A stretch of 64,000 bases of DNA, taken from the NCBI GenBank assembly GCA_002690705.1, contig NZFO01000013.1, positions 13,663 through 77,662 of the forward strand, in the 5' to 3' direction. Made by a program: the position numbers and the translations under genes. The notes below the pieces were generated by a model that was given only the letters and a program-made list of their open reading frames with translations, was not told where the DNA came from and did no database searches. Origin of the DNA: Magnetovibrio sp. Its GTDB lineage: Bacteria; Pseudomonadota; Alphaproteobacteria; Rhodospirillales; Casp-alpha2. Below, in pieces: positions 35,245-62,446 of this stretch (positions are counted from its first letter, which is position 1; every line of letters starts with the position of its first letter).

Positions 35245-35468
35245 AATTTATATTGAGACTGATTTAATTTAGTAAAATTTTAAAAATTTGGTTAGCCATT
35301 ATTTTTACTGAAACCCTGTCAAGTCATCACTCATTCTTTTTTACCTTTCAGCCAACTGAAAATCTCATCTAGTTTGTCGTTGGTTCATAAACCACAATTG
35401 AAAAACCTATCACATCAATAATTTGGAGTTAACTGGTTAACATCAACATAAGAGTTTCACATACGGGT

Positions 35469-36141
35469 TTACGAGCCTCGTCCACCTCGCGCCTTTGACC
35501 AACCAGTTGGGTCCATTAAAAATTCGCGTACCTCCTTTATGGAATTTTTTGAAAAATATTGATCCTCTTCGGCTACTTTGAGAACGTCTTGCCAACTGCA
35601 TAGATAATGAAGATTTACTCCAATTTCTTCGATAGCATTTAAAGCATTGGGAAATACTCCATAAAAAAAAAACTACAAAAATATCGCTTATTTCAGCACC
35701 AGCATCACGTAAAGCCCTGACAAAGTTTATCTTAGATCCTCCATCAGTTGCTAGATCCTCTATTAAAATAACTCGTTGGCCCTCTCTTAAAGCTCCTTCA
35801 ATTTGTGCGTTTCTTCCAAAGCCTTTGGGTTTTTTCCGAACGTAAAGCATAGGCTTATTTGTAGCTTCTGCTATCCATGCAGCATACGGTATACCAGCTG
35901 TCTCCCCACCGGCTACTAAGTCAGTAACATCGAGATTTCCCTCTCGACGGAGCAATTCCACAGCTAATTTAATTATACGACGCCGGGCCTCTGGAAAAGA
36001 AATTACCCATCGACAATCGATGTAGACGGGACTCACCCATCCTGCAGTGAGTGTATAGGGATTTTTTGGTCGAAAATTTACAGCTTTGATATCTAATAAC
36101 CATCTCGCGCTCTCAAGAGACGTCGGGGCGTATTGTATCAT
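35469..36141 (-). pseudogene. pyrE: orotate phosphoribosyltransferase with one-base homopolymer frameshift
   Basis: PyrE joins orotate and PRPP to give OMP in pyrimidine synthesis. The start ATG at 36141 has AGGAG five bases upstream. The N-part is intact (YTLTAGWVSPVYIDCRW) and includes the PRPP loop ILIEDLATDGGSK. Then a run of ten T (coding strand; 35663-35672) follows DIFVVF. With nine T the frame continues as FYGVFPNAL to a family-typical C-terminus ending KARGGRGS and stop at 35469, 223 residues in all. With ten it reads into a 238-residue nonsense tail. This may be a true frameshift, a sequencing error in the homopolymer, or a gene rescued by transcriptional slippage. Confidence 0.88.
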
Positions 36142-36348
36142 GATACTCCTGTGGTCCAAAAAACTTAAATATTATCCCAGATCTAAAAGACTCTCGGTTA
36201 ATTATATTGCATAATGAAAATATGAAAATGAAGATAATTTTTTAAATGTTAAAGTATTAACTACATCTCCTTATTTATTATTTGATGAAGAGTTTGGAAT
36301 CAATTTAGACGTTTTATTGACGCTAGTCAGCGTGGTTATATTGAAAAA

Positions 36349-47252: not shown

Positions 47253-47789
47253 ATGCCCGCAGATGTTTCAAACGCCTTTGATGTAGCCCTTTTTTTCTCA
47301 GATGCCGCTTTGTCAGAAAATAAGTACCTACAACCACAAAAATTACAAAGCCTGTTATTTTTAGCACAAGCATATTACAGTGTGGCGTTTCAGGATCGTA
47401 AACTTATGCCAGCGGTTTTTGTTGCAGATGAGCTTGGACCGCTAGAACCAAACGTATATGTCGCCCTCTCTAGGGGAAAACTAGAAGCAACGCAGGGCTT
47501 GTCTCTTCCTCGTGAAGTAGAGAGATTCCTCGAGGCAATCTGGCGTCGATTTGGGCACATGTCATCGGAAAAAGTCATACATTTGACGAGCAGCACCGAA
47601 GCGTACAAACGTGCTTATAAGAGGGGTAAACAAGCTGAAATTGATCCGGCTGAAATGAGATCATCATTTATTCGCACGGAAAAAATGCCACATATAGATC
47701 AAGTTATAAAACCAAAAATTTACAGAACACAGTCAGGAAAACCAGTGGTAGTGAAGTCTTGGGTGCCGGGTAATAAGTCGACGGATTAA
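47253..47789 (+). CDS. Panacea-domain (SocA/DUF4065-like) protein
   Basis: 178 residues. The segment DVALFFSDAALSENKYLQPQKLQSLLFLAQAYYSVAF, read in pieces, and FVADELGPLEPNVYVAL match the DUF4065/Panacea fold, found in the antitoxin SocA and in many toxin-antitoxin antitoxins. The C-terminal 70 residues are basic (YKRAYKRGKQAEIDP; IKPKIYRTQSGKPVVVKSW). No toxin-like partner adjoins it, unless the hypothetical gene upstream plays that role. In SocA the protein is a proteolytic adaptor. It converges with the antiporter operon with three bases between stops. Confidence 0.75.
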   Translation: MPADVSNAFDVALFFSDAALSENKYLQPQKLQSLLFLAQAYYSVAFQDRKLMPAVFVADELGPLEPNVYVALSRGKLEATQGLSLPREVERFLEAIWRRFGHMSSEKVIHLTSSTEAYKRAYKRGKQAEIDPAEMRSSFIRTEKMPHIDQVIKPKIYRTQSGKPVVVKSWVPGNKSTD

Positions 47790-47792
47790 AAA

Positions 47793-49487
47793 TTAAATAG
47801 AAGTCAAAAATAATATTAAGAAAAAGCAAAGAAGAACTAATGCGCAAAAAACCATGGTGCTGGCGGAATTAATCCAAATAAACACCACCTGCATACTAGA
47901 ATATCGATCTAAAAGCCGAATTATAGTATCAAAAGTTCCAACAAGTATCCTGCGACCGCGTTGGTTAACACGTTGTATAGTTGTCGTAATGGACAGAAAA
48001 AATTTAGGTGCTAATCGTCGATAAAACCAATCTGTGTCCAAATTAGTCGACTTGAGCTCGGGCGGATAAAGACCAGTTAACATAAGGAATGTGAATGCAA
48101 GTGCTGAGAACATTAGCAATTGTAATTGAGTAATTACATGAGCCGGGGAATATGGGATATAGTCTACGTCAAAGGGAAGAATAGCGTAAAGAGGGGCAGG
48201 GTAAACACCTACAGCAATACACAAAAACGCTGCAATGCCCATTGAGAATCGCATGTTGAAGGGCGCTTCCTTGGGACGCATTCCGGAATCGTGCGCGAAA
48301 AAAGCAAAGTACGGTATTTTAATTCCTGAGTGATGGAATACCCCCGCAGACGCAAAGAGCAGTATTGCCCATATAAACCAATACCCTTCAACTCCAAGCG
48401 CAGTCAAAATCATCGATTTAGTAACAAATCCTGACATGAGCGGAAATGAAGAGATCGATGCAGCACCGATGATGCAAAAGCCTGTTGTCCACGGCATAGT
48501 TTTGTATAATCCGCCAAGATCTGAACCATTAATAGTACCTGTACGCATGAGAACAGCTCCCATAGTCATAAAGAGCAAGGCTTTGTATATGATGTGGGCG
48601 AAAGCATGGCCAGCAGCGCCATTTATCGCTAATTCTGTTCCTACTCCAATGCCAACAACCATAAAACCAAGCTGATTGTTCAAACTATAGGCTAGGACGC
48701 GGCGAAGATTATTCTCAATAACAGCAAAAAAGATTGGAAAAGCTGTCATCGTTGCCCCAATGTAAATGAGAAATTCCGTACCCGCAAAACCCCGCGCTAA
48801 GGCATAGACAGCAAGTTTCGTTGTAAATGCACTTAAAATAACCGTGCCTGAGACTGTAGCCTCTGGATATGCATCTTGAAGCCAGTTATGCAAAAGCGGA
48901 AATGCACATTTTATACCGAAGGCAACTAAAACTAGTTTCCCACCGAACGTCTCAACACCGATATGCCCAAAGTGAATAGAGCCTGTCTCAGCAAAAATTA
49001 TAACAGCTCCTGCCAATAACAATACGCCAGAACCAATTTGTACAACAAGATACCTCATGCCCGCGTGGAAAGACCGCTCCGTGCCACTTGCCCAAATGAG
49101 AAATACCGATGAAATTGCGGTTAATTCCCAGAATATAAATAGAGTGATCAAATCACCTGCAAAAACTGCCGCTACTGCACTTCCCATATAAATCTGTGCC
49201 ATAGCTGCTTGAACAGGATCGTCCTCGTGAATGGCGTAAAGCACCCCCAAAAATGCAGCGATATGAAAAACATATCCCCAAAGGAGCGTTAGTTTATCGA
49301 CACGCAGGACCTCAAGCGTATAACCCATAAAATCTGCGGTTACTGTAGTTCCAACTTGTAGTGATATGACATATGTGAGCCCGGCTATCGGAAGAGCTAA
49401 TAGGACGACTCGCCTAACACTGCTAGACAAAAGTGGGACAAGCAGACCACCCAAAACCATGATAAGGCCGGGGTTAAAATCAACCAT
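47793..49487 (-). CDS. Mrp/Mnh-type antiporter subunit, third MnhD-like protein
   Basis: 564-residue membrane protein with a proton-conducting antiporter core (NuoL/M/N family), about 14 helices. Channel residues are visible: Glu in FIFWELTAISSVFL, Lys in FGIKCAFPLLHNWL, Lys in AHIIYKALLFM. It is last in the operon and the start overlaps the preceding small gene by eight bases. Longer than the other two D-like subunits because of extra C-terminal residues. Third antiporter-like unit, probably replacing the N-terminal half of MnhA. Confidence 0.88.
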   Translation of the reverse strand: MVDFNPGLIMVLGGLLVPLLSSSVRRVVLLALPIAGLTYVISLQVGTTVTADFMGYTLEVLRVDKLTLLWGYVFHIAAFLGVLYAIHEDDPVQAAMAQIYMGSAVAAVFAGDLITLFIFWELTAISSVFLIWASGTERSFHAGMRYLVVQIGSGVLLLAGAVIIFAETGSIHFGHIGVETFGGKLVLVAFGIKCAFPLLHNWLQDAYPEATVSGTVILSAFTTKLAVYALARGFAGTEFLIYIGATMTAFPIFFAVIENNLRRVLAYSLNNQLGFMVVGIGVGTELAINGAAGHAFAHIIYKALLFMTMGAVLMRTGTINGSDLGGLYKTMPWTTGFCIIGAASISSFPLMSGFVTKSMILTALGVEGYWFIWAILLFASAGVFHHSGIKIPYFAFFAHDSGMRPKEAPFNMRFSMGIAAFLCIAVGVYPAPLYAILPFDVDYIPYSPAHVITQLQLLMFSALAFTFLMLTGLYPPELKSTNLDTDWFYRRLAPKFFLSITTTIQRVNQRGRRILVGTFDTIIRLLDRYSSMQVVFIWINSASTMVFCALVLLCFFLILFLTSI

Positions 49488-49737
49488 CGTAATAATCTTC
49501 CGAGCGCATGAGGATTTTTCTTATCCATTTGGCAACAAGAACTAATCCGACGCACATGACAAATCCATATATCGCATAGAATCCATAGACATATTCAATA
49601 GCAAAGTGAGGATGCTTATCATAAAATCCTTCTGCTATTAGCAACCCTGAACAGACAATAACGAGGGCCCACACGATCTTTTTTACGTTGCGTTTATCGT
49701 CTAGCCAATGGGACGCATCGTTCGAATTTTTACTCAT
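49480..49737 (-). CDS. small two-helix membrane protein in the antiporter operon
   Basis: 85 residues with two predicted transmembrane helices (KIVWALVIVCSGLLIAEGF and AIYGFVMCVGLVLVAKWI) joined by a periplasmic loop HPHFAIEYVYG. It starts four bases before the end of the upstream D-like gene and overlaps the next, so it is certainly co-translated. I do not recognise it as a standard Mrp subunit (A to G). It may be an accessory that helps assemble the two flanking D-type proteins. Confidence 0.7.
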   Translation of the reverse strand: MSKNSNDASHWLDDKRNVKKIVWALVIVCSGLLIAEGFYDKHPHFAIEYVYGFYAIYGFVMCVGLVLVAKWIRKILMRSEDYYDG

Positions 49738-51290
49738 GGTGCACCACCAGAAACAATAGGGTGCAGAAATCTAAAAAGTGTATCTGCATAAAAAAATAAA
49801 ACGACACACCCTAGGGCTGTGAATGATAATGCACCAATACAAGTTGCAGGTGCTTCATGAAAGCCTCTTACTCTCCAAACATTATTAGCAACAGCATCAC
49901 CGGGATCCAGCAACCTGCGATTCTCAGTATAGTGAGTTTTAGAAGGATACTCTTGGTCAATTTCCAAGTTCTCGTTATAGAAACCCCGTATTACAATTGG
50001 AATGAGGTAGGCGACGTTCAATAACGAGGAGATCATTAAAATCAGAATAAATATCACTTCATTGATATCGGCTGCACCCAAAAGCAAGTACCACTTGCTC
50101 CAGACCCCGCCGAATGGTGGAAGTCCAATAATACTGAGGCTGCCGATTAAAAAGCAGAAAAACGTAATTGGCATTTTACGGCCCAAGCCGCGCATTTGGC
50201 TTATTTCAGTTTTATGACTTGCGACCATAATTGCACCAGCGCAGAAAAATAACGTTATCTTTCCGAAAGCATGCATCGCAATATGCATCGCACCCCCAAG
50301 GGTTCCCAAGGCACTGCCCAGCAAACTTGCAAGCACAATATACGACAGTTGGCTAACTGTTGAATAAGCCAATCTCGCTTTGAGGTTATCTCTGGAAAGT
50401 GCCACTAAAGATGCAACCAATATGGTAGCCGCTGCCAAATATTGAATCCACGCGGAGCTCCCCAAAGCCACTAAATTATCTATGCCAAAAATATAAATAG
50501 TTACTTTAAGAACTCCAAAAACCCCCGCCTTTACAACTGCTACAGCATGAAGAAGGGCGCTCACTGGTGTTGGTGCAACCATCGCAGCTGGGAGCCATCG
50601 ATGGAAGGGCATTACTGCGGCTTTACCGATACCAAAAATATACAAGGGTAGTAGCGTTGCCATTACCCCAACTGAGACATTCTCTCCAAAAATACCACCC
50701 TCTGTAAAATCTAGAGTGTTGGTTACATTGTAGGTCCAAACTATTGCGGTGAGCAAAAAAACAATGGAAGTGCCAATTAGAATGCCAAGATAAACACGAC
50801 CTGCCCTTTTTGCAGATTCTGTACCCGAATGTGTAACTAGAGGAAAGGTTGAAAGCGTTAAAACTTCATAAAATATGAAAAACGTTAACAGATTTCCCGA
50901 AAACGCTATTCCAATAGCACTTGAAATCGCTATGGCAAAACAAACGAAAAAGCGGGTTTGATTTTGCTCATGATGTCCGCGCATGTATCCAATAGCGTAG
51001 ATTGTCGTTACAATCCAGAGAGAGCTCGCAATGCCAGCGAAGAGCATACCCAGTGGCTCTAAGGTAAATGTGATAGACAGACTGGGGAGTAGTTCACCGA
51101 GTGTTAGAGTTGGACGAGCTCCGCTCGCAACATCGTCAAACAGACTTCCGATTACAAAAAAGGTAACTGCCGCTGTTACGAGAGTGATACGCTCACGTTG
51201 ATTGGGCCTTGAGCTCGACATTACCAACATTGGAACCGCAAAAAGCGGTAGAATAATTGCTATTAAGATAGAACTTTCAGCCGTCATCAA
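49734..51290 (-). CDS. Mrp/Mnh-type antiporter subunit, second MnhD-like protein
   Basis: 518 residues, antiporter-like subunit of the NuoL/M/N family with about 14 helices. Key residues: Glu in FIFYEVLTLSTFP, Lys in GIGKAAVMPFHRWLP, Lys in HAFGKITLFF. The discontinuous-helix region GRAxLAYSTVSQLSY-like (LKARLAYSTVSQLSYI) is present. The start overlaps the end of mnhD by four bases. Together with the proteins before and after, the complex would have three antiporter units. Confidence 0.9.
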   Translation of the reverse strand: MMTAESSILIAIILPLFAVPMLVMSSSRPNQRERITLVTAAVTFFVIGSLFDDVASGARPTLTLGELLPSLSITFTLEPLGMLFAGIASSLWIVTTIYAIGYMRGHHEQNQTRFFVCFAIAISSAIGIAFSGNLLTFFIFYEVLTLSTFPLVTHSGTESAKRAGRVYLGILIGTSIVFLLTAIVWTYNVTNTLDFTEGGIFGENVSVGVMATLLPLYIFGIGKAAVMPFHRWLPAAMVAPTPVSALLHAVAVVKAGVFGVLKVTIYIFGIDNLVALGSSAWIQYLAAATILVASLVALSRDNLKARLAYSTVSQLSYIVLASLLGSALGTLGGAMHIAMHAFGKITLFFCAGAIMVASHKTEISQMRGLGRKMPITFFCFLIGSLSIIGLPPFGGVWSKWYLLLGAADINEVIFILILMISSLLNVAYLIPIVIRGFYNENLEIDQEYPSKTHYTENRRLLDPGDAVANNVWRVRGFHEAPATCIGALSFTALGCVVLFFYADTLFRFLHPIVSGGAP

Positions 51291-52768
51291 ACGCCTCCCG
51301 CCAAAAGTGCCTTGGCGGCAGCACCGGCTATCTCCAGTGTAGCATTGGTATTAATACCAAAGAATATGGTGGCCCCGATTAATATCCACATTGGAGCAAC
51401 CATTGAAATTGGAGCTCTATCAATATCATTGATAGGATTTACCGGACGATGAAAATATATAACCTCAACGATACGCCAGACGTAGACCACTGTTAGAATA
51501 GAACTTAGAACGATGATGAACGCGATCGGCCACAACCCAATATCTATCGCCGCTTGAATCAAATACCATTTAGAAATAAAGCCTGCTGTCAAAGGCATAC
51601 CGATTAAGCCTAGTCCACCAATTACTAAGGCAGCCATAGTTAATGGCATCCTCTCACCAAGGCCCGCGATATCCTGGATTTTTGTGCTACCAATCTGATA
51701 GGCTAACAAGCCTAGGACCATGAATAAGCCACCTTTCATTAACGCGTGATTGAAAAGATGAACTACTCCAGCAGTAACACCTGTCACTGAGTCAAAACTT
51801 ATCCCCAGAATAATATATCCAATCTGGGCAATCGAGGAGTAAGCGAACAGGCGCCTAACATCCGTTTGGTATAACGCTGCCGCAGAACCGATAACCATTG
51901 CAGCTATTGCCAAAACCATTAACATATTGCGCACAGGTAAGATCTCTAAAATATTAACGTCCCCGAAGATAGAGAAAACCACTCTGATAAATGCGTATAC
52001 TGCGACCTTTGTCGCCGTTGCGGAGAGGAATATTGAAACAACTGATGGAGCGTACGTGTATGCATTCGGTAGCCACATGTGCATCGGAAATAATGCGGCT
52101 TTTAAAGCTAACCCAATAATTAAAAAAGCCATTCCTGACTGAACAGTGCGGTTGCCACCAATATTAGGGATAAGGACTGCTAGATCAGCAATATTTAAAC
52201 TGCCAGTCGCCATGTATAACAATCCGACACCGATGATATAAAAGGTCGCACCGATCGTTCCCACGATCAAGTATCTGTAGGCCGCGGTCAGGGCTCTCCT
52301 ATCTTTTCCAAAACTTATCAAAACGTATGTCGAGAGCGAGGAAATCTCCAGAAACACAAAGAGATTGAAAGCATCACCAGTAATGGTCATCCCAAGAAGT
52401 CCCGCTAAGCAAAGTAACAACATCGTGTAAAACAGGTAAATTCGTTTTTGGGGAATTTCGCGCTCAACTGATCTGCGAGCAAAAGGTAAAACAATTGCAC
52501 CAATCATGGAGACAATGATCAGCACAAAGGAGTTGAGGATATCTATTCGATACTCGATACCCCAAGGGGCTGCCCAGCCCCCAAGATTATAAACAATTGT
52601 TCCTTGCTCTAAAACTTTTAACAACAAACCAACGGACATAGGCAAGCACAACCAAGCAGTCACAAAAGCCCACATCCATACTACACGAGGATGACGGATA
52701 AACATACAAATTGGAGCAGCAAGAAGTGGAAGCACAACCTGTAAAATGGGTAAATGTTGCGCAATCAC
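51287..52768 (-). CDS. mnhD: Na+/H+ antiporter subunit D
   Basis: 493 residues, the standard MnhD/MrpD size. Channel residues: Glu in NLFVFLEISSLSTYV, Lys in IIGLALKAALFPMHMWLP, Lys in NHALMKGGLFMV; the RLFAYSSIAQIGYI segment is conserved. It follows mnhC with a four-base overlap, the usual C-D order of Mrp operons. Inner membrane; couples cation or proton movement. Confidence 0.95.
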   Translation of the reverse strand: MIAQHLPILQVVLPLLAAPICMFIRHPRVVWMWAFVTAWLCLPMSVGLLLKVLEQGTIVYNLGGWAAPWGIEYRIDILNSFVLIIVSMIGAIVLPFARRSVEREIPQKRIYLFYTMLLLCLAGLLGMTITGDAFNLFVFLEISSLSTYVLISFGKDRRALTAAYRYLIVGTIGATFYIIGVGLLYMATGSLNIADLAVLIPNIGGNRTVQSGMAFLIIGLALKAALFPMHMWLPNAYTYAPSVVSIFLSATATKVAVYAFIRVVFSIFGDVNILEILPVRNMLMVLAIAAMVIGSAAALYQTDVRRLFAYSSIAQIGYIILGISFDSVTGVTAGVVHLFNHALMKGGLFMVLGLLAYQIGSTKIQDIAGLGERMPLTMAALVIGGLGLIGMPLTAGFISKWYLIQAAIDIGLWPIAFIIVLSSILTVVYVWRIVEVIYFHRPVNPINDIDRAPISMVAPMWILIGATIFFGINTNATLEIAGAAAKALLAGGV

Positions 52769-53136
52769 GCATCATTCTCCAAAGCGCAAATATCATCCTC
52801 TTCCACAGTACCGAAGGCTTCCCGCACTCGCACCACTAATGCTAAACCGAGAGCTGTTGTTGCTACTCCAACTACAATTGCTGTGAGAATCAACACATGA
52901 GGTAATGGGTTCGAGTAAGTAGACACTCCTTCCTTGAGAATGGGCGCCGTGCCCCCCAAGACTTTTCCCATAGTGATAAAAAGTAGGAAAACAGACACTT
53001 GGAATACGTTAAGTCCAACTATTTTTTTTACCAAATTACCATGCGCGATAACGATATAAAACCCTATCATCATCAGTACAATTATGATCCAATAGAGTCC
53101 TAAACTCGGGAAGTAGAATTCCGTTTCCAAACTCAT
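52765..53136 (-). CDS. mnhC: Na+/H+ antiporter subunit C
   Basis: 123-residue, three-helix NuoK-like protein. Family segments are YIVIAHGNLVKKIVGLNVFQ and the strong motif NPLPHVLILTAIVVGVATTALGLAL in parts, where conserved polar residues line the proton path. The start overlaps mnhB by four bases. An acidic C-terminal tail (VEEDDICALE) is present. Confidence 0.95.
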   Translation of the reverse strand: MSLETEFYFPSLGLYWIIIVLMMIGFYIVIAHGNLVKKIVGLNVFQVSVFLLFITMGKVLGGTAPILKEGVSTYSNPLPHVLILTAIVVGVATTALGLALVVRVREAFGTVEEDDICALENDA

Positions 53137-53576
53137 CTCTCTTCATCTCTTGGCTTTTGCAGCTCAGCTCGACTAGCAAAGGTGGAGAAAATAGTAATCA
53201 TTGCAGTTGCGACAGTTACACCAACACCCAACTCAATTAAAATGATACCAAGATGTTGGCCACCCGTTGGCGCTGCGGCCAAAACGTTATAATCAAGGAA
53301 GTTACCACCTTTAAAAATACCCATAACTCCCACCAATCCGTAACCTAGTACGCCCAACGGCAATAATATGCGAGTAGCAGCTGACGGCACTGCTGTTCGA
53401 ACGTTAGAAACTCCAAATATCAAACCGTAAAGTATGAAACCAGAGGCAAAGATCACCCCGGCTTGAAAACCACCACCCGGTCCGAAATCCCCATGCCATT
53501 GAACATACAATCCAAATAAGAGGATGTAAGGTATCAGAAACTTAGAGATAACCCGGAGGATAATTTTTTCCTTCAT
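53133..53576 (-). CDS. mnhB: Na+/H+ antiporter subunit B
   Basis: 147 residues with four predicted helices. The family motif YVQWHGDFGPGGGFQAGVIFASG, in parts, and the end GVGVTVATAMITIFSTFASR are present. In canonical Mrp operons it follows mnhA; here it follows the DUF4040-type gene, overlapping it by four bases. It matches the MrpB domain of the antiporter. Confidence 0.94.
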   Translation of the reverse strand: MKEKIILRVISKFLIPYILLFGLYVQWHGDFGPGGGFQAGVIFASGFILYGLIFGVSNVRTAVPSAATRILLPLGVLGYGLVGVMGIFKGGNFLDYNVLAAAPTGGQHLGIILIELGVGVTVATAMITIFSTFASRAELQKPRDEER

Positions 53577-54148
53577 GACGATATTTCTTTCATGTTTTGT
53601 TTCCTTTTTGGCCTGCGCTTTGGCCGGCGTCCCCGACCAAGTATGGCGAGCACACCGGCCGCGGCAGTGAACACCACAAATACTTCACCCAGCGTGTCGT
53701 AACCGCGATAGCTTGCGAGTACTGAAGTAACAACGTTTGGAATCCCGATTTCTTCTCCCGAGGCCCCCAAATACCGCGGAGCCACATGATTATGAATGGG
53801 AGCTGCCGGATCGCCGAAATCGGGCATATCCAGCGTACCATAAATGAGAACCATTCCAGTACCAGTGACAACGATGAGGGCAGATAAAACCTGCAGCGGC
53901 CGTGCTGGCTTCTCGTCACTGGTGGTCAGAGCTAATGTGCCAAGCATTAAAACAGTGGCAATACCCGCACCAACTGCAGCTTCGGTGAACGCGACGTCGA
54001 CCGCATCTAGAGCAACATACACCGCCGCACCCAATAAACTGAAAATACTTGAGAGCATTACAACTGCGAACAAATTGTGCAGCAGGGCAATGGCTAATCC
54101 AGTAAAGGTCATGAAGACTAATAATGAAAATATAATAAAAGTTTCCAC
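53573..54148 (-). CDS. DUF4040/MbhD-MbhE-like subunit (separate MnhA C-terminal part)
   Basis: 191 residues. The first half (LLHNLFAVVMLSSIFSLLGAAVYVALDAVDVAFTEAAVGAG in pieces) matches the MbhD/DUF4040 domain, with a conserved Glu in the AFTEAAVG helix. The second half (PNVVTSVLASYRGYDTLGEVFVVFTAAAG in parts) matches MbhE. In ordinary Mrp systems both are fused to the C-terminus of MnhA. Here the antiporter-like N-terminal part of MnhA is missing and this piece is separate, as in membrane-bound hydrogenase complexes. Confidence 0.88.
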   Translation of the reverse strand: METFIIFSLLVFMTFTGLAIALLHNLFAVVMLSSIFSLLGAAVYVALDAVDVAFTEAAVGAGIATVLMLGTLALTTSDEKPARPLQVLSALIVVTGTGMVLIYGTLDMPDFGDPAAPIHNHVAPRYLGASGEEIGIPNVVTSVLASYRGYDTLGEVFVVFTAAAGVLAILGRGRRPKRRPKRKQNMKEISS

Positions 54149-54150
54149 GA

Positions 54151-54477
54151 TTACTGCATTCGCGTTCTTGGTTTAATCGTTGCGACTGGATCCAAGCCTG
54201 AGTATAGAGCCGCACGTGCTAGGGCATGAGTGCCCGTTGGGCTTGTAAAAAAAATGAACACGAAAATCATAACTAATTTGCCCAATGCAAGTGTCAAGCC
54301 TGTCTGAAATCCCAATCCCAATAAAATTAAACCGAGCCCCATGGTATCTATAACACTTGCACCGTGCATACGGCAGAAAAAGTCAGGTAGGGTGACAACG
54401 CCGAATGCGCCAATTATGCAGAATAAACTACCTGAGATAATTGTTATCCAACTCAAACCATCCAACAGCAGTTCCAC
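54151..54477 (-). CDS. mnhG: Na+/H+ antiporter subunit G
   Basis: 108 residues, three helices. Family motifs: GAFGVVTLPDFFCRMHGASVIDTMG in pieces and IFFTSPTGTHALARAAL. It starts at the base where mnhF ends (one-base overlap) and is followed after two bases by the DUF4040 gene. Length and pattern normal for MrpG. Confidence 0.94.
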   Translation of the reverse strand: MELLLDGLSWITIISGSLFCIIGAFGVVTLPDFFCRMHGASVIDTMGLGLILLGLGFQTGLTLALGKLVMIFVFIFFTSPTGTHALARAALYSGLDPVATIKPRTRMQ

Positions 54478-54773
54478 TAGATTTCTCCGTGGTGTTCACT
54501 TGATGTATCCACCGGTCCTAATTTTTTAAAACGCACATACCGAGTGACGGCGATAGTGCCTATGAAATTAATCAGCGCGTAAACTAAACCTAGATCAAGA
54601 AATTCTGGTCGGCCAACTAAATAACCGTGAACCGCGATAAGCAACACAGTCAGCGTTCCAATGCTATTTATTGCAAGGATCCGGTCAAAGACTGTCGGGC
54701 CAATGAAAGCACGCACCAAGACGAGTAACATTGATATCAATAATGCACTTGCTGCAACACCAAACATGCTCAT
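54477..54773 (-). CDS. mnhF: Na+/H+ antiporter subunit F
   Basis: 98 residues, three helices. The motif RAFIGPTVFDRILAINSIGT is family-typical, with an Arg/Asp pair in PTVFDRILA used by the complex, and ALINFIGTIAVTRYVR follows. The start overlaps the end of mnhE by four bases. Confidence 0.94.
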   Translation of the reverse strand: MSMFGVAASALLISMLLVLVRAFIGPTVFDRILAINSIGTLTVLLIAVHGYLVGRPEFLDLGLVYALINFIGTIAVTRYVRFKKLGPVDTSSEHHGEI

Positions 54774-55282
54774 CCAGCACCTTCCGAGCCCGGGGCAACG
54801 AAACCCTCAAGAGCTGTTATTTTACGGTCCATCTCTCCACTTTGAAGCCCTTCTTTTGCCGCTGATGTTAACGAGTGGACGGTAAATTTATTGTCCTCAA
54901 CCAAAATCGTTACTGTCCCCGGCGTTAAAGTAATGGAATTAGCATATGTCACCTTGCCAACGTCTGACGTTTGAGAAGCCTGAACTTTAAAAAGGCTCGG
55001 TGTTACAGAGCGCGGACCGCTTAAAATTGCTATCGTAACGTTGAAATTTGATTTTATTATTTCCCAAAGGAGCCAAAAGTAATAACCTATCCCTTTTGCT
55101 GTCATGTGTATGGGGTGGCTCTCGTGGTCAATGACATCCATTCGATGCGCAAGCCACAAAACAAATAAAACTGAGATTACACCGAGCGCTAGTGTAAGAG
55201 GAATGAAATATCCTGATAGCAAAAACCACAGAACGGTTAGCCCAATTGCAAGAGTAATAAGATGCATCAATATCTTCACCAT
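54770..55282 (-). CDS. mnhE: Na+/H+ antiporter subunit E
   Basis: First gene of the operon, 170 residues from ATG 55282 (MVKILMHLITLAIGL); the frame is open to a GTG at 55327, which would add 15 residues. Two N-terminal helices are followed by the family core YYFWLLWEIIKSNFNVTIAIL and SITLTPGTVTILVEDNKFTVHSL in parts. The 100-base spacer before it also separates the DUF192 gene going the other way, so it should hold divergent promoters. Confidence 0.9.
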   Translation of the reverse strand: MVKILMHLITLAIGLTVLWFLLSGYFIPLTLALGVISVLFVLWLAHRMDVIDHESHPIHMTAKGIGYYFWLLWEIIKSNFNVTIAILSGPRSVTPSLFKVQASQTSDVGKVTYANSITLTPGTVTILVEDNKFTVHSLTSAAKEGLQSGEMDRKITALEGFVAPGSEGAG

Positions 55283-55430
55283 TTCTTTCAATAACACTGC
55301 AAAACACAGCAGACTGAGGATAGTCACGGCTTATTTTGTAATCCAGTAAAAATTTAATTATTCAAATGCAAATATTAAAAATTTAGCCATACTATCAACC
55401 TAATCTTGAGAAAAAACGCGAGGATTGGAT

Positions 55431-59822: not shown

Positions 59823-60959
59823 TCAATTTCGTCGGGACCGAAGGCCACCTAAACCAAGCGCACGATGTGTTATGGCTGCAGCCTTAATCATTGCGTATAC
59901 TTTTGTACCTGGCTCAAGTTTCATATTTGAGATGGATTTTTTGGTTACGCTTGCAATAAGAAGTGCTCCCAAATCAAGGACTAGCTCGGCTTGTGGACCG
60001 TTACCAGTGATGATTTCCTTAACTGTAGCGGGAAGAATATTTAAAATACTAGTGCCTTTGGGTCGTGTTAAGCTAAGTAAGACATCTCTCGCTCTTACCC
60101 GCATTCGTGTTTCTGTGCCAAGCGGCACATCTACAAAGGGTATCCATAATTTTCCACCAAAAAAGCTTAATTGCGTTAATTTGAAAAATTCATCTTGTTG
60201 ACTAACTATAACATTAATCACAGAACTCGCCTCATGACGCCCAGTTAACGGACGTAAATCTGCCCGGCTCATAATTTCTTCGACTAACCCCGTTGCAGAG
60301 TTTTTTCCTTGATCAAGCAGCACCATAGTATCTGCCAGTCTGACTACTTCCTCCATATCGTGGCTAACATAAATTATTGGAAGCATAAATTCATCGCGAA
60401 GCCTCTCAATATAAGGAAGGATTTGACTTTTATGGGATGCATCAAGTGAGGCAAGGGGTTCGTCCATAACTAAAATTCTTGGGTGCGAGAGGAGTGCTCG
60501 AGCAATTGCAGTCCGCTGCTTTTCGCCTCCTGAGAGAGTATTAGGCCATCTGCCCAGCAAAAAACCCAAGTCTAGTAACTCGATAACCTCCTTAATTGGG
60601 ATATGAAACCCAGTACCTTTTCCAAAACGACAGGCAAATTCTATATTTCCTTTTACTGTTAAATGTGGAAATAAATCTCCTTCTTGGGATACAAAGCCGA
60701 TACTACGTTTCTCGGGCGTTAGGAAAATATGTTTATCTGTATCGCAAAGAATACGATTATCAATTTCTATTCTACCCCAATCCGGGACCGATAACCCAGT
60801 AATCAAATTTATTAATGTCGTTTTCCCCGAACCCGATCTTCCAAATAATGCGGTGACCCCTTGACGTGCCATGAAACTGACGTCTAAATCGAATTCACCA
60901 ATACGTTTTTTGACCTTGACACGAAGTATATTTGAATCGAATGCAGGGGTTGAGTTCAT
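59823..60959 (-). CDS. modC: molybdate ABC transporter ATP-binding protein
   Basis: ATPase of the molybdate importer, 378 residues. Walker A GRSGSGKT at 40-47, Q-loop FVSQEGDLFPHLTV, signature LSGGEKQRTAIARALL, Walker B ILVMDEPLASLD and His in YVSHDMEEV. A C-terminal TOBE/Mop domain (about 290-365: GTSILNILPATVKEI) binds molybdate and is typical of ModC. AGGG overlapping the modB stop is the ribosome binding site. Ends the operon. Confidence 0.95.
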   Translation of the reverse strand: MNSTPAFDSNILRVKVKKRIGEFDLDVSFMARQGVTALFGRSGSGKTTLINLITGLSVPDWGRIEIDNRILCDTDKHIFLTPEKRSIGFVSQEGDLFPHLTVKGNIEFACRFGKGTGFHIPIKEVIELLDLGFLLGRWPNTLSGGEKQRTAIARALLSHPRILVMDEPLASLDASHKSQILPYIERLRDEFMLPIIYVSHDMEEVVRLADTMVLLDQGKNSATGLVEEIMSRADLRPLTGRHEASSVINVIVSQQDEFFKLTQLSFFGGKLWIPFVDVPLGTETRMRVRARDVLLSLTRPKGTSILNILPATVKEIITGNGPQAELVLDLGALLIASVTKKSISNMKLEPGTKVYAMIKAAAITHRALGLGGLRSRRN

Positions 60960-60971
60960 GATTGAATCGCC

Positions 60972-61652
60972 CTATTTCTTAAGCCGCCGAGCCAGTAATT
61001 CAGAGGCAATTAGGGCTGATGCTGCCAAAATTATAGATAGTATTACCAATCTAAGCGCTCCCTGTTCACCACCGGGTATCTGTAATAGATTGTAGAGTGC
61101 TAACGGTAAAGTTTGTGTCGCTCCTGGAATATTTGATACAAAAGTTATGGTTGCACCGAACTCTCCAATACTTCTAGCAAACGCTAAAATTGCACCGGAA
61201 ATTATTCCGGGTGCGGCTAAAGGCAGCGTAACAGTCAGAAATACCAAAAATGGCCCAGCTCCTAACGTACGGCCGATATTCTCTAATTTTGGATCAATTG
61301 CATCAAGGGAGAGACGTATAGCACGAACCATTAATGGAAACGCCATAACCGATGCAGAAATTGCCGCGCCCCGCCATGTAAAAGCGACGCTTATATTGAA
61401 GACATCAAATAGCCACTTACCGATAATTCCTTGCCGCCCCAAAAGCACCAATAACAGGTAACCTATCACCACTGGGGGAAGGATAAGAGGCAAATGAACC
61501 AAACCATCTAACAATATTTTTCCAGGAAAGTGCTTGCGCGCTAGGATCCAAGCAACCCCGAACCCAACCGGTAAACTCAGAGAAACAGACCAAAGGGCCA
61601 CTTTTAAACTGAGTCGTAATGCCTCGATTTCAAACCCATTTAAGGACAACAT
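60972..61652 (-). CDS. modB: molybdate ABC transporter permease
   Basis: 226 residues, about five transmembrane helices, ending RLKK. The binding-protein-dependent permease EAA loop is visible: NIGRTLGAGPFLVFLTVTLPLAAPGIISG in pieces. It contacts ModC. Segments SIGEFGATITFVSNIPG and TQTLPLALYNLLQIPG are ModB-typical. Lies between modA (29 bases) and modC (12 bases). Confidence 0.95.
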   Translation of the reverse strand: MLSLNGFEIEALRLSLKVALWSVSLSLPVGFGVAWILARKHFPGKILLDGLVHLPLILPPVVIGYLLLVLLGRQGIIGKWLFDVFNISVAFTWRGAAISASVMAFPLMVRAIRLSLDAIDPKLENIGRTLGAGPFLVFLTVTLPLAAPGIISGAILAFARSIGEFGATITFVSNIPGATQTLPLALYNLLQIPGGEQGALRLVILSIILAASALIASELLARRLKK

Positions 61653-61681
61653 AACAAGTTTCCAACCATAATGTTTACGAT

Positions 61682-62446
61682 TTATTTTAAGGGCTCGAAG
61701 CCATGTTCAATGAGGATAGACGCAACTTCAGAGGAGAGTAGAAATTTAAAATACTCGTCAACAATTGGTTGCGATATTTTTCCGATTTTGGTTGCAATAT
61801 ATTGGATATCTGGATGCGAGTTTTGTGAAATAGATGAAACTACCCGGACGCTAGTCGTTTTTTTCACATCACTTGCATACACTATTCCCGCTAAAGCTTC
61901 AGCGCGAGAGACTAGTGCTAATGCAGCCCGAACGTTTGCAACGCGCACCACGCGGTGTTTTACGGCACTCCAATATCCAAACTTTTTAAGGGCTGCGCGA
62001 GCATACCTACCGGCTGGCACATGGTTGGGATCGGCTATGGTTAGCCAATCATTACGAAGCAACGGCGCAAGGCCAACCGATTCTCCAAAGTCAAATTTAA
62101 AGTCAGATTGAAGGGGAGTAATTAATACAAGCTTATTTCTCGTGAATACTTTGGGTAGTCCTCTGGTTAATCCCTGATTGCGGACATAAGTTGTCCACTC
62201 AGAATTTGCAGAAATGAATATGTCAGCAGGAGCCCCCGCAATAATTTGTCTAGCTAACGCCGAGGACGCCGCATGAATACCAACACATTTAGGCAACCCT
62301 CGGGTTGAACCCACTCTTGAAATTTTAGTAAATACATCAGAGAGGCTAGCTGCGCTGTATACATGAATGACTTCGGCCTGACTAGGAGACGCCCCCCACC
62401 ATATTGACGCAACCACAACAATAACGCAAACGCGCGGCAACCACAT
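61682..62446 (-). CDS. modA: molybdate ABC transporter substrate-binding protein
   Basis: 254 residues with a signal peptide of about 24 residues (cleavage near SQA). The mature protein begins EVIHVYSAASLSDVF. ModA-type ligand regions are YSAASLSD, HAASSALARQIIAGAPADIF-like in parts, and ADPNHVPAGRYARAAL. Binds molybdate (perhaps tungstate) in the periplasm. It begins six bases after the hisI stop and so is probably expressed with it. Confidence 0.93.
   Translation of the reverse strand: MWLPRVCVIVVVASIWWGASPSQAEVIHVYSAASLSDVFTKISRVGSTRGLPKCVGIHAASSALARQIIAGAPADIFISANSEWTTYVRNQGLTRGLPKVFTRNKLVLITPLQSDFKFDFGESVGLAPLLRNDWLTIADPNHVPAGRYARAALKKFGYWSAVKHRVVRVANVRAALALVSRAEALAGIVYASDVKKTTSVRVVSSISQNSHPDIQYIATKIGKISQPIVDEYFKFLLSSEVASILIEHGFEPLK

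Follow-up and report, generated by a model that had tools for sequence, protein, structure and literature searches.

A ten-gene Mrp-type operon with three antiporter proteins

We analyzed a 64,000-nucleotide stretch of DNA from Magnetovibrio sp. (GenBank assembly GCA_002690705.1, contig NZFO01000013.1, positions 13,663 to 77,662 of the forward strand), hereafter the window, whose minus strand carries at positions 47793-55282 a ten-gene operon related to the Mrp monovalent-cation/proton antiporters, in the order E-F-G-DUF4040-B-C-D1-D2-S85-D3. This gene set, with its order and coordinates, had been described in a sequence-only reading of the window and was confirmed here by the positions of the open reading frames (ORFs) and by Pfam and NCBIfam searches. 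Eight of the nine gene junctions overlap by 1 to 8 nt and the ninth is a gap of 2 nt, a spacing so close that the ten genes are probably translated as a unit.

Linked homologues of Mrp E, F, G, B, C, and D are all present. The operon begins with an MrpE-like gene (54770..55282; PF01899 MNHE, E 2.4e-28), the start of which is ambiguous (ATG at 55282 or GTG at 55327), followed by an MrpF-like gene (54477..54773; PF04066), whose product has Asn 36 at a conserved Asp position (D35 of A. flavithermus), and an MrpG-like gene (54151..54477; PF03334, with TIGR01300 above cut-off). The DUF4040 protein (53573..54148) joins an MbhD-like and an MbhE-like part (PF13244 and PF20501; NF009159 above cut-off) and can be aligned to MbhD, MbhE, and the C-terminal part of MrpA, whose counterpart it is. 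Next come an MrpB-like gene (53133..53576; PF04039, NF009162 above cut-off) and a gene for an MrpC/NuoK-like protein with Gln 46 (52765..53136; PF00420), the best PDB match of which is MBS subunit G.

Three antiporter units were identified by the Pfam search as Proton_antipo_M proteins (PF00361): D1 (51287..52768), D2 (49734..51290), and D3 (47793..49487). D3 scored above the curated cut-off of NF009310 (PRK12668, Na(+)/H(+) antiporter subunit D; 699.2 versus 564 bits); D1 and D2 each had a best NCBIfam model of their own, NF009305 and NF006236, and stayed under the cut-off (510 versus 700 and 543 versus 663, respectively). No ORF that unites an antiporter half, a lateral helix (HL), and a C-terminal half, as a single MrpA does, was found in the cluster or among the six PF00361 places of the genome, a 21-contig assembly that is 96.5% complete. 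The operon accounts for three of these places and a nuo cluster on contig C3 for the rest; their open frames are 494-658 aa long, none of MrpA length. The earlier description of three units with the C-terminal part of MrpA set apart, and with no redox module encoded, thus stands: that part is DUF4040, the cluster holds no protein of MrpA length, and no redox genes lie in the operon.

Between D2 and D3 lies S85 (49480..49737), a small, conserved two-helix membrane protein of 85 aa that belongs to no named family. It gave no NCBIfam or Pfam match at E 0.001, none among the PHROGs, and against Pfam sub-cut-off matches only. Its predicted structure has helices at residues 15-36 and 53-76 (pLDDT 79, pTM 0.49).

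Key channel residues were placed by alignment to E. coli NuoL, NuoM, and NuoN at the residue numbers that we take to be theirs, and the letters at those positions agreed. The Glu of transmembrane helix 5 (TM5), both classical Lys residues (TM7 and TM12), and the Lys of TM8 are retained in all three window proteins (E141, K223, K254, and K400 in D1; E142, K223, K254, and K399 in D2; E121, K193, K224, and K357 in D3), in keeping with the helix-5 Glu and two Lys previously read from the sequence. The four D3 residues are invariant across 62 aligned D3 proteins. Among the tree rows described below, the TM8 Lys is found in 13/14 D1 and 13/15 D2, and the remaining D1 and D2 positions do not vary. 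D2 also bears a His and a Lys typical of MrpA and NuoL (H248 and K344), present in 14 and 15, respectively, of its 15 tree rows.

Conservation of the operon and length of the D3 lateral helix

Relatives of D3 were collected by a scan of named genomes, and the best 80 of at least 588 were used as the set of loci, which therefore leans towards close kin. The complete ten-gene order was present in 61 of these loci. The remaining 19 are cut short by a contig end, so that only part of the order is seen, down to D3 alone in L085; wherever the contig reaches gene E, the order is fixed and all three D genes are present (61/61). This recurrence places the arrangement beyond chance and indicates that it is not an oddity of one genome. 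S85 was found in 79 of the 80 loci. The record titles, mostly of metagenome-assembled genomes, include Alpha-, Beta-, and Gammaproteobacteria and Myxococcota; one cultured organism with the operon is Nisaea denitrificans DSM 18348 (L043). With the window's own genome counted, NF009310 was above cut-off in 63/289 genomes of the class and in 14/21 near relatives; it was above cut-off in 0/14 named control genomes.

A few loci have a different appearance. In L110 (G214 contig 7, 309000-323302), near a contig end, D2- and D3-like genes are paired with ~190 nt between them; other Mrp genes were not found nearby, the tree tool flagged an unusual letter make-up, and the locus may be a split or reduced version. 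L114 (G204 contig 1, ~577000-585000) and L111 (G106 contig 11) carry DUF4040-B fusions of 346 and 371 aa, respectively. L073, from a record titled Oceanobacillus sp. HTM 045, has a ten-gene cluster, and because its D1, D2, and D3 group with those of the alphaproteobacterium Thermohalobaculum, this Bacillota-named record is probably mislabelled or contaminated.

The D2-S85-D3 block was also found in another machine. On plasmids of Rhizobium sp. Pop5 and Ensifer canadensis, complex I operons contain an antiporter D, an 84-aa hypothetical protein, and a second antiporter D between nuoK and nuoM, and the displayed stretch has no annotated nuoL; four further rhizobial plasmids have the order J-K-D2-S-D3-M-N. 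Identity between the window proteins and these counterparts is 49% for D2, 37.5% for S85 (E 1e-9), and 48% for D3. The rhizobial operons fit the published green complex I, which, according to the accessible part of its description, has two MrpD-like proteins in place of NuoL (PMC9040806), and the D2-S85-D3 block of the window is homologous to the block replacing NuoL there. Since S85 accompanies D2 and D3 in both machines, it may act at the D2-D3 contact or in assembly.

An AlphaFold2 model of D3 built from 62 sequences (pLDDT 85) placed TM15 at residues 448-471, the HL at 487-530, and TM16 at 542-563. The best Foldseek matches of the model were MrpA chains; VIA-align ranked MrpD chains at the top (Z 42.8 and 42.7, over model residues 1-440), with mycobacterial complex I NuoL next (Z 41.5, residues 1-530, root mean square deviation 4.0, 522 residues aligned). 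No such anchor-helix pattern was seen in D1 or D2 of the window.

We took HL length as the distance from the Asp preceding the HL to the centre of TM16, a crude hydropathy method applied to loci that are related to one another. For D3, NuoL, and green D3, TM16 was sought in the last 45 residues only, which left 3 of 86 D3 (79 loci, the window, and 6 divergent rows) and 2 of 25 NuoL unmeasured; this version replaced an earlier measurement in which 9/86 D3 were unmeasured and 6 of the 77 measured fell at 18-32. MrpA rows L102, L103, and L105 were kept outside, each being a doubtful ORF picked by length. The median was 35 for MrpA (15/15 measured, 14 of them at 33-39), 67 for NuoL (23/25, range 63-69; E. 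coli NuoL, 61), and likewise 67 for D3 of the window type (83/86, range 63-75; window D3, 69), so that the D3 helix exceeds that of MrpA by ~30 residues. Green complex I D3 measured 91 in 6/6, a four-unit length that the window D3 does not have.

The length of the HL corresponds to the number of antiporter units in the accessible part of a published comparison (PMC7684303), and it follows unit number here as well, with two units for MrpA, three for NuoL, and four for green D3. A D3 helix of three-unit, NuoL-like length fits a row of D3, D2, and D1, which most likely form one row; it also lends substance to the earlier remark that the set resembles a complex I arm, the helix having NuoL and not two-unit MrpA length. 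Altogether, the results suggest that the operon rather likely encodes one complex, a predicted three-unit Mrp-type monovalent-cation/proton antiporter.

Ancestry of the antiporter units, neighbouring genes, and alternative readings

Two unrooted trees were built, the first of 79 rows, with several long branches, and the second of 58 rows, i.e., 54 of the 79 plus MBS, MBH, and Bacillus segments; the 25 rows left out of the latter were those of L041, L053, L073, L096, L101, L104, L105, L110, and L122 and L114_D3, with long or repeated rows among them. In the 79-row tree, D1 (14 rows) formed one clade beside NuoN (support 97/89), D2 together with green D2 was sister to MrpA, NuoL, and HyfD (96/83), and D3 with green D3 made up a separate deep clade (100/100), in which green D3 was nested among the Mrp-type D3 rows; green D2 was not nested. 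The 58-row tree gave the same picture, with D1 beside NuoN, MbsH, and MbhH at moderate support, i.e., in the MrpD/NuoN/MbsH part of the tree, and D3 with MbsH' (94/94). Because the trees are unrooted, they show neither an ancestral state nor a direction of transfer; the 'ancestral-like' character proposed earlier for the set is thus left without a basis, and the nesting of green D3 only hints at transfer from Mrp to complex I.

The strongest of the alternatives, though an unlikely one, is that an MrpA was split and an MrpD duplicated, D2 or D3 being the antiporter domain of MrpA, DUF4040 its C-terminal half, and the third unit a spare. The MrpA/NuoL-type His and Lys of D2, its sister position to MrpA, NuoL, and HyfD, and the match of DUF4040 to the C-terminal half of MrpA all agree with such an origin. 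However, neither D2 nor D3 fell inside MrpA in either best tree, so the clustering within MnhA that the sequence-only reading had named as the mark of a simple split did not appear, even if the constraint tests speak less firmly: grouping MrpA with D2 was weakly rejected (approximately unbiased test, p 0.034), and grouping it with D3 was not rejected at 5% (p 0.055). D2 moreover has no HL pattern, the D3 helix runs ~30 residues beyond that of MrpA, and the D2 and D3 clades are both common to green complex I; a simple split of MrpA is not favoured.

Less probable again is that D1, D2, and D3 are alternative subunits, with only two of them in the complex at a time. In the accessible parts of the structural reports, Mrp complexes of solved structure do hold two antiporter units (PMC7419157, PMC9568556), but here every locus that extends to gene E has the three genes together, always in the same order (61/61), and the HL occurs in D3 only, at a length that fits three units.

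Genes that could join the operon to a redox module were sought in the genome and around the 80 loci. The genome has a single match to PF00346 (NuoD) and a single match to PF01058 (NuoB), each close to the nuo genes of contig C3, leaving no linked or spare NuoB or NuoD for the operon, and the large subunit of NiFe hydrogenase (PF00374) had no match; therefore, within the limits of the 21-contig assembly, the search yielded no further complex I or hydrogenase module that could serve the operon's arm. Complex I hydrophilic subunits were likewise found at none of the 80 loci by tblastn with green complex I NuoA-G, I, J, K, M, and N (NuoH was not queried). DabA (PF10070) had no match in the genome, and a DabB-like pairing with DabA was rejected on that ground.

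In the flanks of the loci (5 kb upstream and 6 kb downstream; 14 largest clusters), no extra conserved partner was present in more than 27/80 loci, the commonest flank proteins being, as judged from sequence only, ABC-transporter ATPases (27 loci) and DUF192-like proteins (19 loci). A 2Fe-2S protein of the CO-dehydrogenase/xanthine-dehydrogenase type, assigned by its motif, is encoded at a distance of 1-6 kb in 11/80 loci (e.g., L043, L045, L042, and L095), downstream on the same strand in 6 and divergently upstream in 5, and none is near the operon of the window. It was rejected as a subunit because its side and distance vary and because the CoxL-type matches of the genome, in three places, all lie off the window's contig.

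A third alternative, very improbable, is that the operon supplies the membrane arm of a redox complex similar to green complex I, with genes elsewhere coding for the hydrophilic part. The D2-S85-D3 block does sit with hydrophilic subunits inside rhizobial complex I operons, and the 2Fe-2S protein lies within 6 kb at some loci, but the linked hydrophilic subunits that the sequence-only reading had named as a possible refutation were not found for this operon, a complex I arm with distant redox genes is not supported in a genome whose single NuoB and NuoD adjoin its nuo cluster and whose CoxL-type matches are on other contigs, the D3 helix is without the extra length of green D3, and E, F, and G are Mrp subunits.

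Elsewhere in the window, the convergent neighbour of the operon (47253-47789, plus strand) has a sub-threshold match to the SocA/Panacea antitoxin domain (E 1.3e-4). An ORF at 35443-36159 (minus strand) is presumably an orotate phosphoribosyltransferase from its look by eye; its end is unlike the family, and a frameshift is possible. By eye, too, positions 59823-62446 (minus strand) hold a molybdate-type ABC transporter set of ATPase, permease, and binding protein. The only RNA families in the window are two tRNAs, and promoter and terminator scans, which gave fewer sites than in shuffles, were not used.

Proposed mechanism, cation path, and comparison with known systems

We return to the reading of the operon as one three-unit antiporter. 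Its subunits would form the row D3 (far end)-D2-D1-C-DUF4040/B-F-G/E, with the HL of D3 lying along D3, D2, and D1 and anchored by the last helix, as the HL of NuoL does in complex I. D2 and D3 would stand in for the antiporter half of MrpA, and DUF4040 for its C-terminal half. The proton-motive force would drive protons through the three Glu/Lys channels, and the central Glu/Lys axis would couple this flow to the export of cations at the C/DUF4040/F/G/E side. One channel more than in MrpA plus MrpD might mean roughly one more proton per cation per turnover, which would make export against a steeper cation gradient possible while spending more proton-motive force; the 'high-capacity' pump suggested earlier is plausible as a prediction.

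Residue roles on the cation path were taken from the accessible parts of two structural studies (PMC7419157, PMC9568556). DUF4040 has E56, D151, and E155 in 65/65 sequences, the counterparts of MrpA E706, D792, and E796 of A. flavithermus, the first Glu having been matched to MrpA through MbhD. MrpC positions were placed via alignment to the solved MrpC: a Gln is fixed in 68/68, against Ser, Gly, or Ala in canonical MrpC (n = 10), and the His37 position is variable in both sets and thus uninformative. In MrpF, the neighbouring Asp29 is retained in 59/62.

Several observations weigh against the proposed antiporter or loosen its details. Asp35 of MrpF, described as invariably conserved in canonical Mrp in the accessible part of PMC7419157 and found as Asp in 10/10 canonical MrpF here, is replaced by Asn in 62/62 sequences of this type (61 of the 80 loci yielding F, plus the window), and the His40 position of MrpC is Phe, Tyr, or Ile in 68/68 versus Asn in 10/10 canonical sequences. 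Among the divergent clusters, 3/5 have Asn at the Asp35 position, and in the other two, L114 and L111, the MrpF motif is degenerate and the MrpC Gln retained. Together, the MrpF and MrpC changes suggest that the cation site differs and that the ion may not be Na+. According to the same accessible text (PMC7419157), replacing Asp35 is strongly harmful in E. coli; in B. subtilis, with Glu and Asn as the only replacements made, it is not. The Asn could thus be compatible with Na+ transport and would mark a different site.

The channel of D3 may differ as well: the wider tree has 15 D3 rows, of which 14 have the TM5 Glu, 14 the TM8 Lys, 14 the TM12 Lys, and 10 the TM7 Lys, and both green D3 have Asn at TM7. 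One divergent cluster, L114, is without S85 as judged by spacing. In addition, HL length is an indirect argument for the unit row; the MrpA side of the length comparison was measured from hand-picked anchors, and one MrpA outlier, L122, measured 68, its TM16 as seen by eye lying under the hydropathy threshold. The altered cation path, the wide conservation of the operon, and the presence of the D2-S85-D3 block in green complex I had all been missed by the sequence-only reading.

In the prevailing view, complex I and related machines are assembled from copies of a single ion-pumping unit, of which MBH has one, MBS and Mrp two, complex I three, and green and related complex I four or five. A natural three-unit machine without a redox part would offer a direct test of whether an added unit adds a proton per cycle, apart from electron transfer. 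The presence of D2-S85-D3 in green complex I as well suggests a joint transfer of units from one machine to another, and we tentatively consider this block a transplantable module, the helix of which, lengthened by ~24 residues, would have given a four-pump complex I. Given how common the family is within a single large class of bacteria, the finding also bears on how many of them may handle salt and pH.

Among known systems, green complex I shares the D2-S85-D3 block with the window operon; it differs in carrying NuoA-K, M, and N and hydrophilic subunits, and in a D3 helix of 91 versus 67-69 in the window type. MBS and MBH of Pyrococcus likewise have a separate MbhD/MbhE-like part, and the best PDB matches of window D1 and C are in MBS, whose two units are clamped by the HL in the accessible account (PMC7684303); the window operon, in contrast, has three units and no hydrogenase or sulfur-reductase module. 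Ehrlichia chaffeensis has a separate DUF4040, B, C, E, F, and G and three proteins of 489-519 aa, but these genes lie at six separate loci and were each assayed on their own, as far as the accessible text tells (PMC8395091), and the likeness is one of gene list only.

A literature search, the coverage of which left out most subscription journals, gave no description of a ten-gene, three-unit cluster, and a prior description is possible; the parts and the general machine are already known, and Mrp clusters with extra D genes are reviewed in the accessible part of PMC5703873. The same text gives the irregular group 3 orders mrpFGBCDDAE of Microbacterium sp. TS-1 and mrpCDCDEFGBB of cyanobacteria (PMC5703873). 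Like the window operon, group 3 has an irregular order and more than one D gene, and TS-1 has three large units (D, D, and A); by gene order, on which alone TS-1 was compared, it includes an A that the window operon does not have. A further likeness in composition is to Mrp/Mnh/Pha (CPA3) groups 1 and 2, which share with the window operon E, F, G, B, C, and D, an MrpA-like C-terminal half, and the lack of a redox module. Compared to these groups, the window operon has three antiporter proteins replacing MrpA and MrpD, a separate DUF4040, an additional S85, and an HL of three-unit length, along with Asn for Asp35 in MrpF and, in MrpC, a Gln and a non-polar or aromatic residue at the His40/Asn position.

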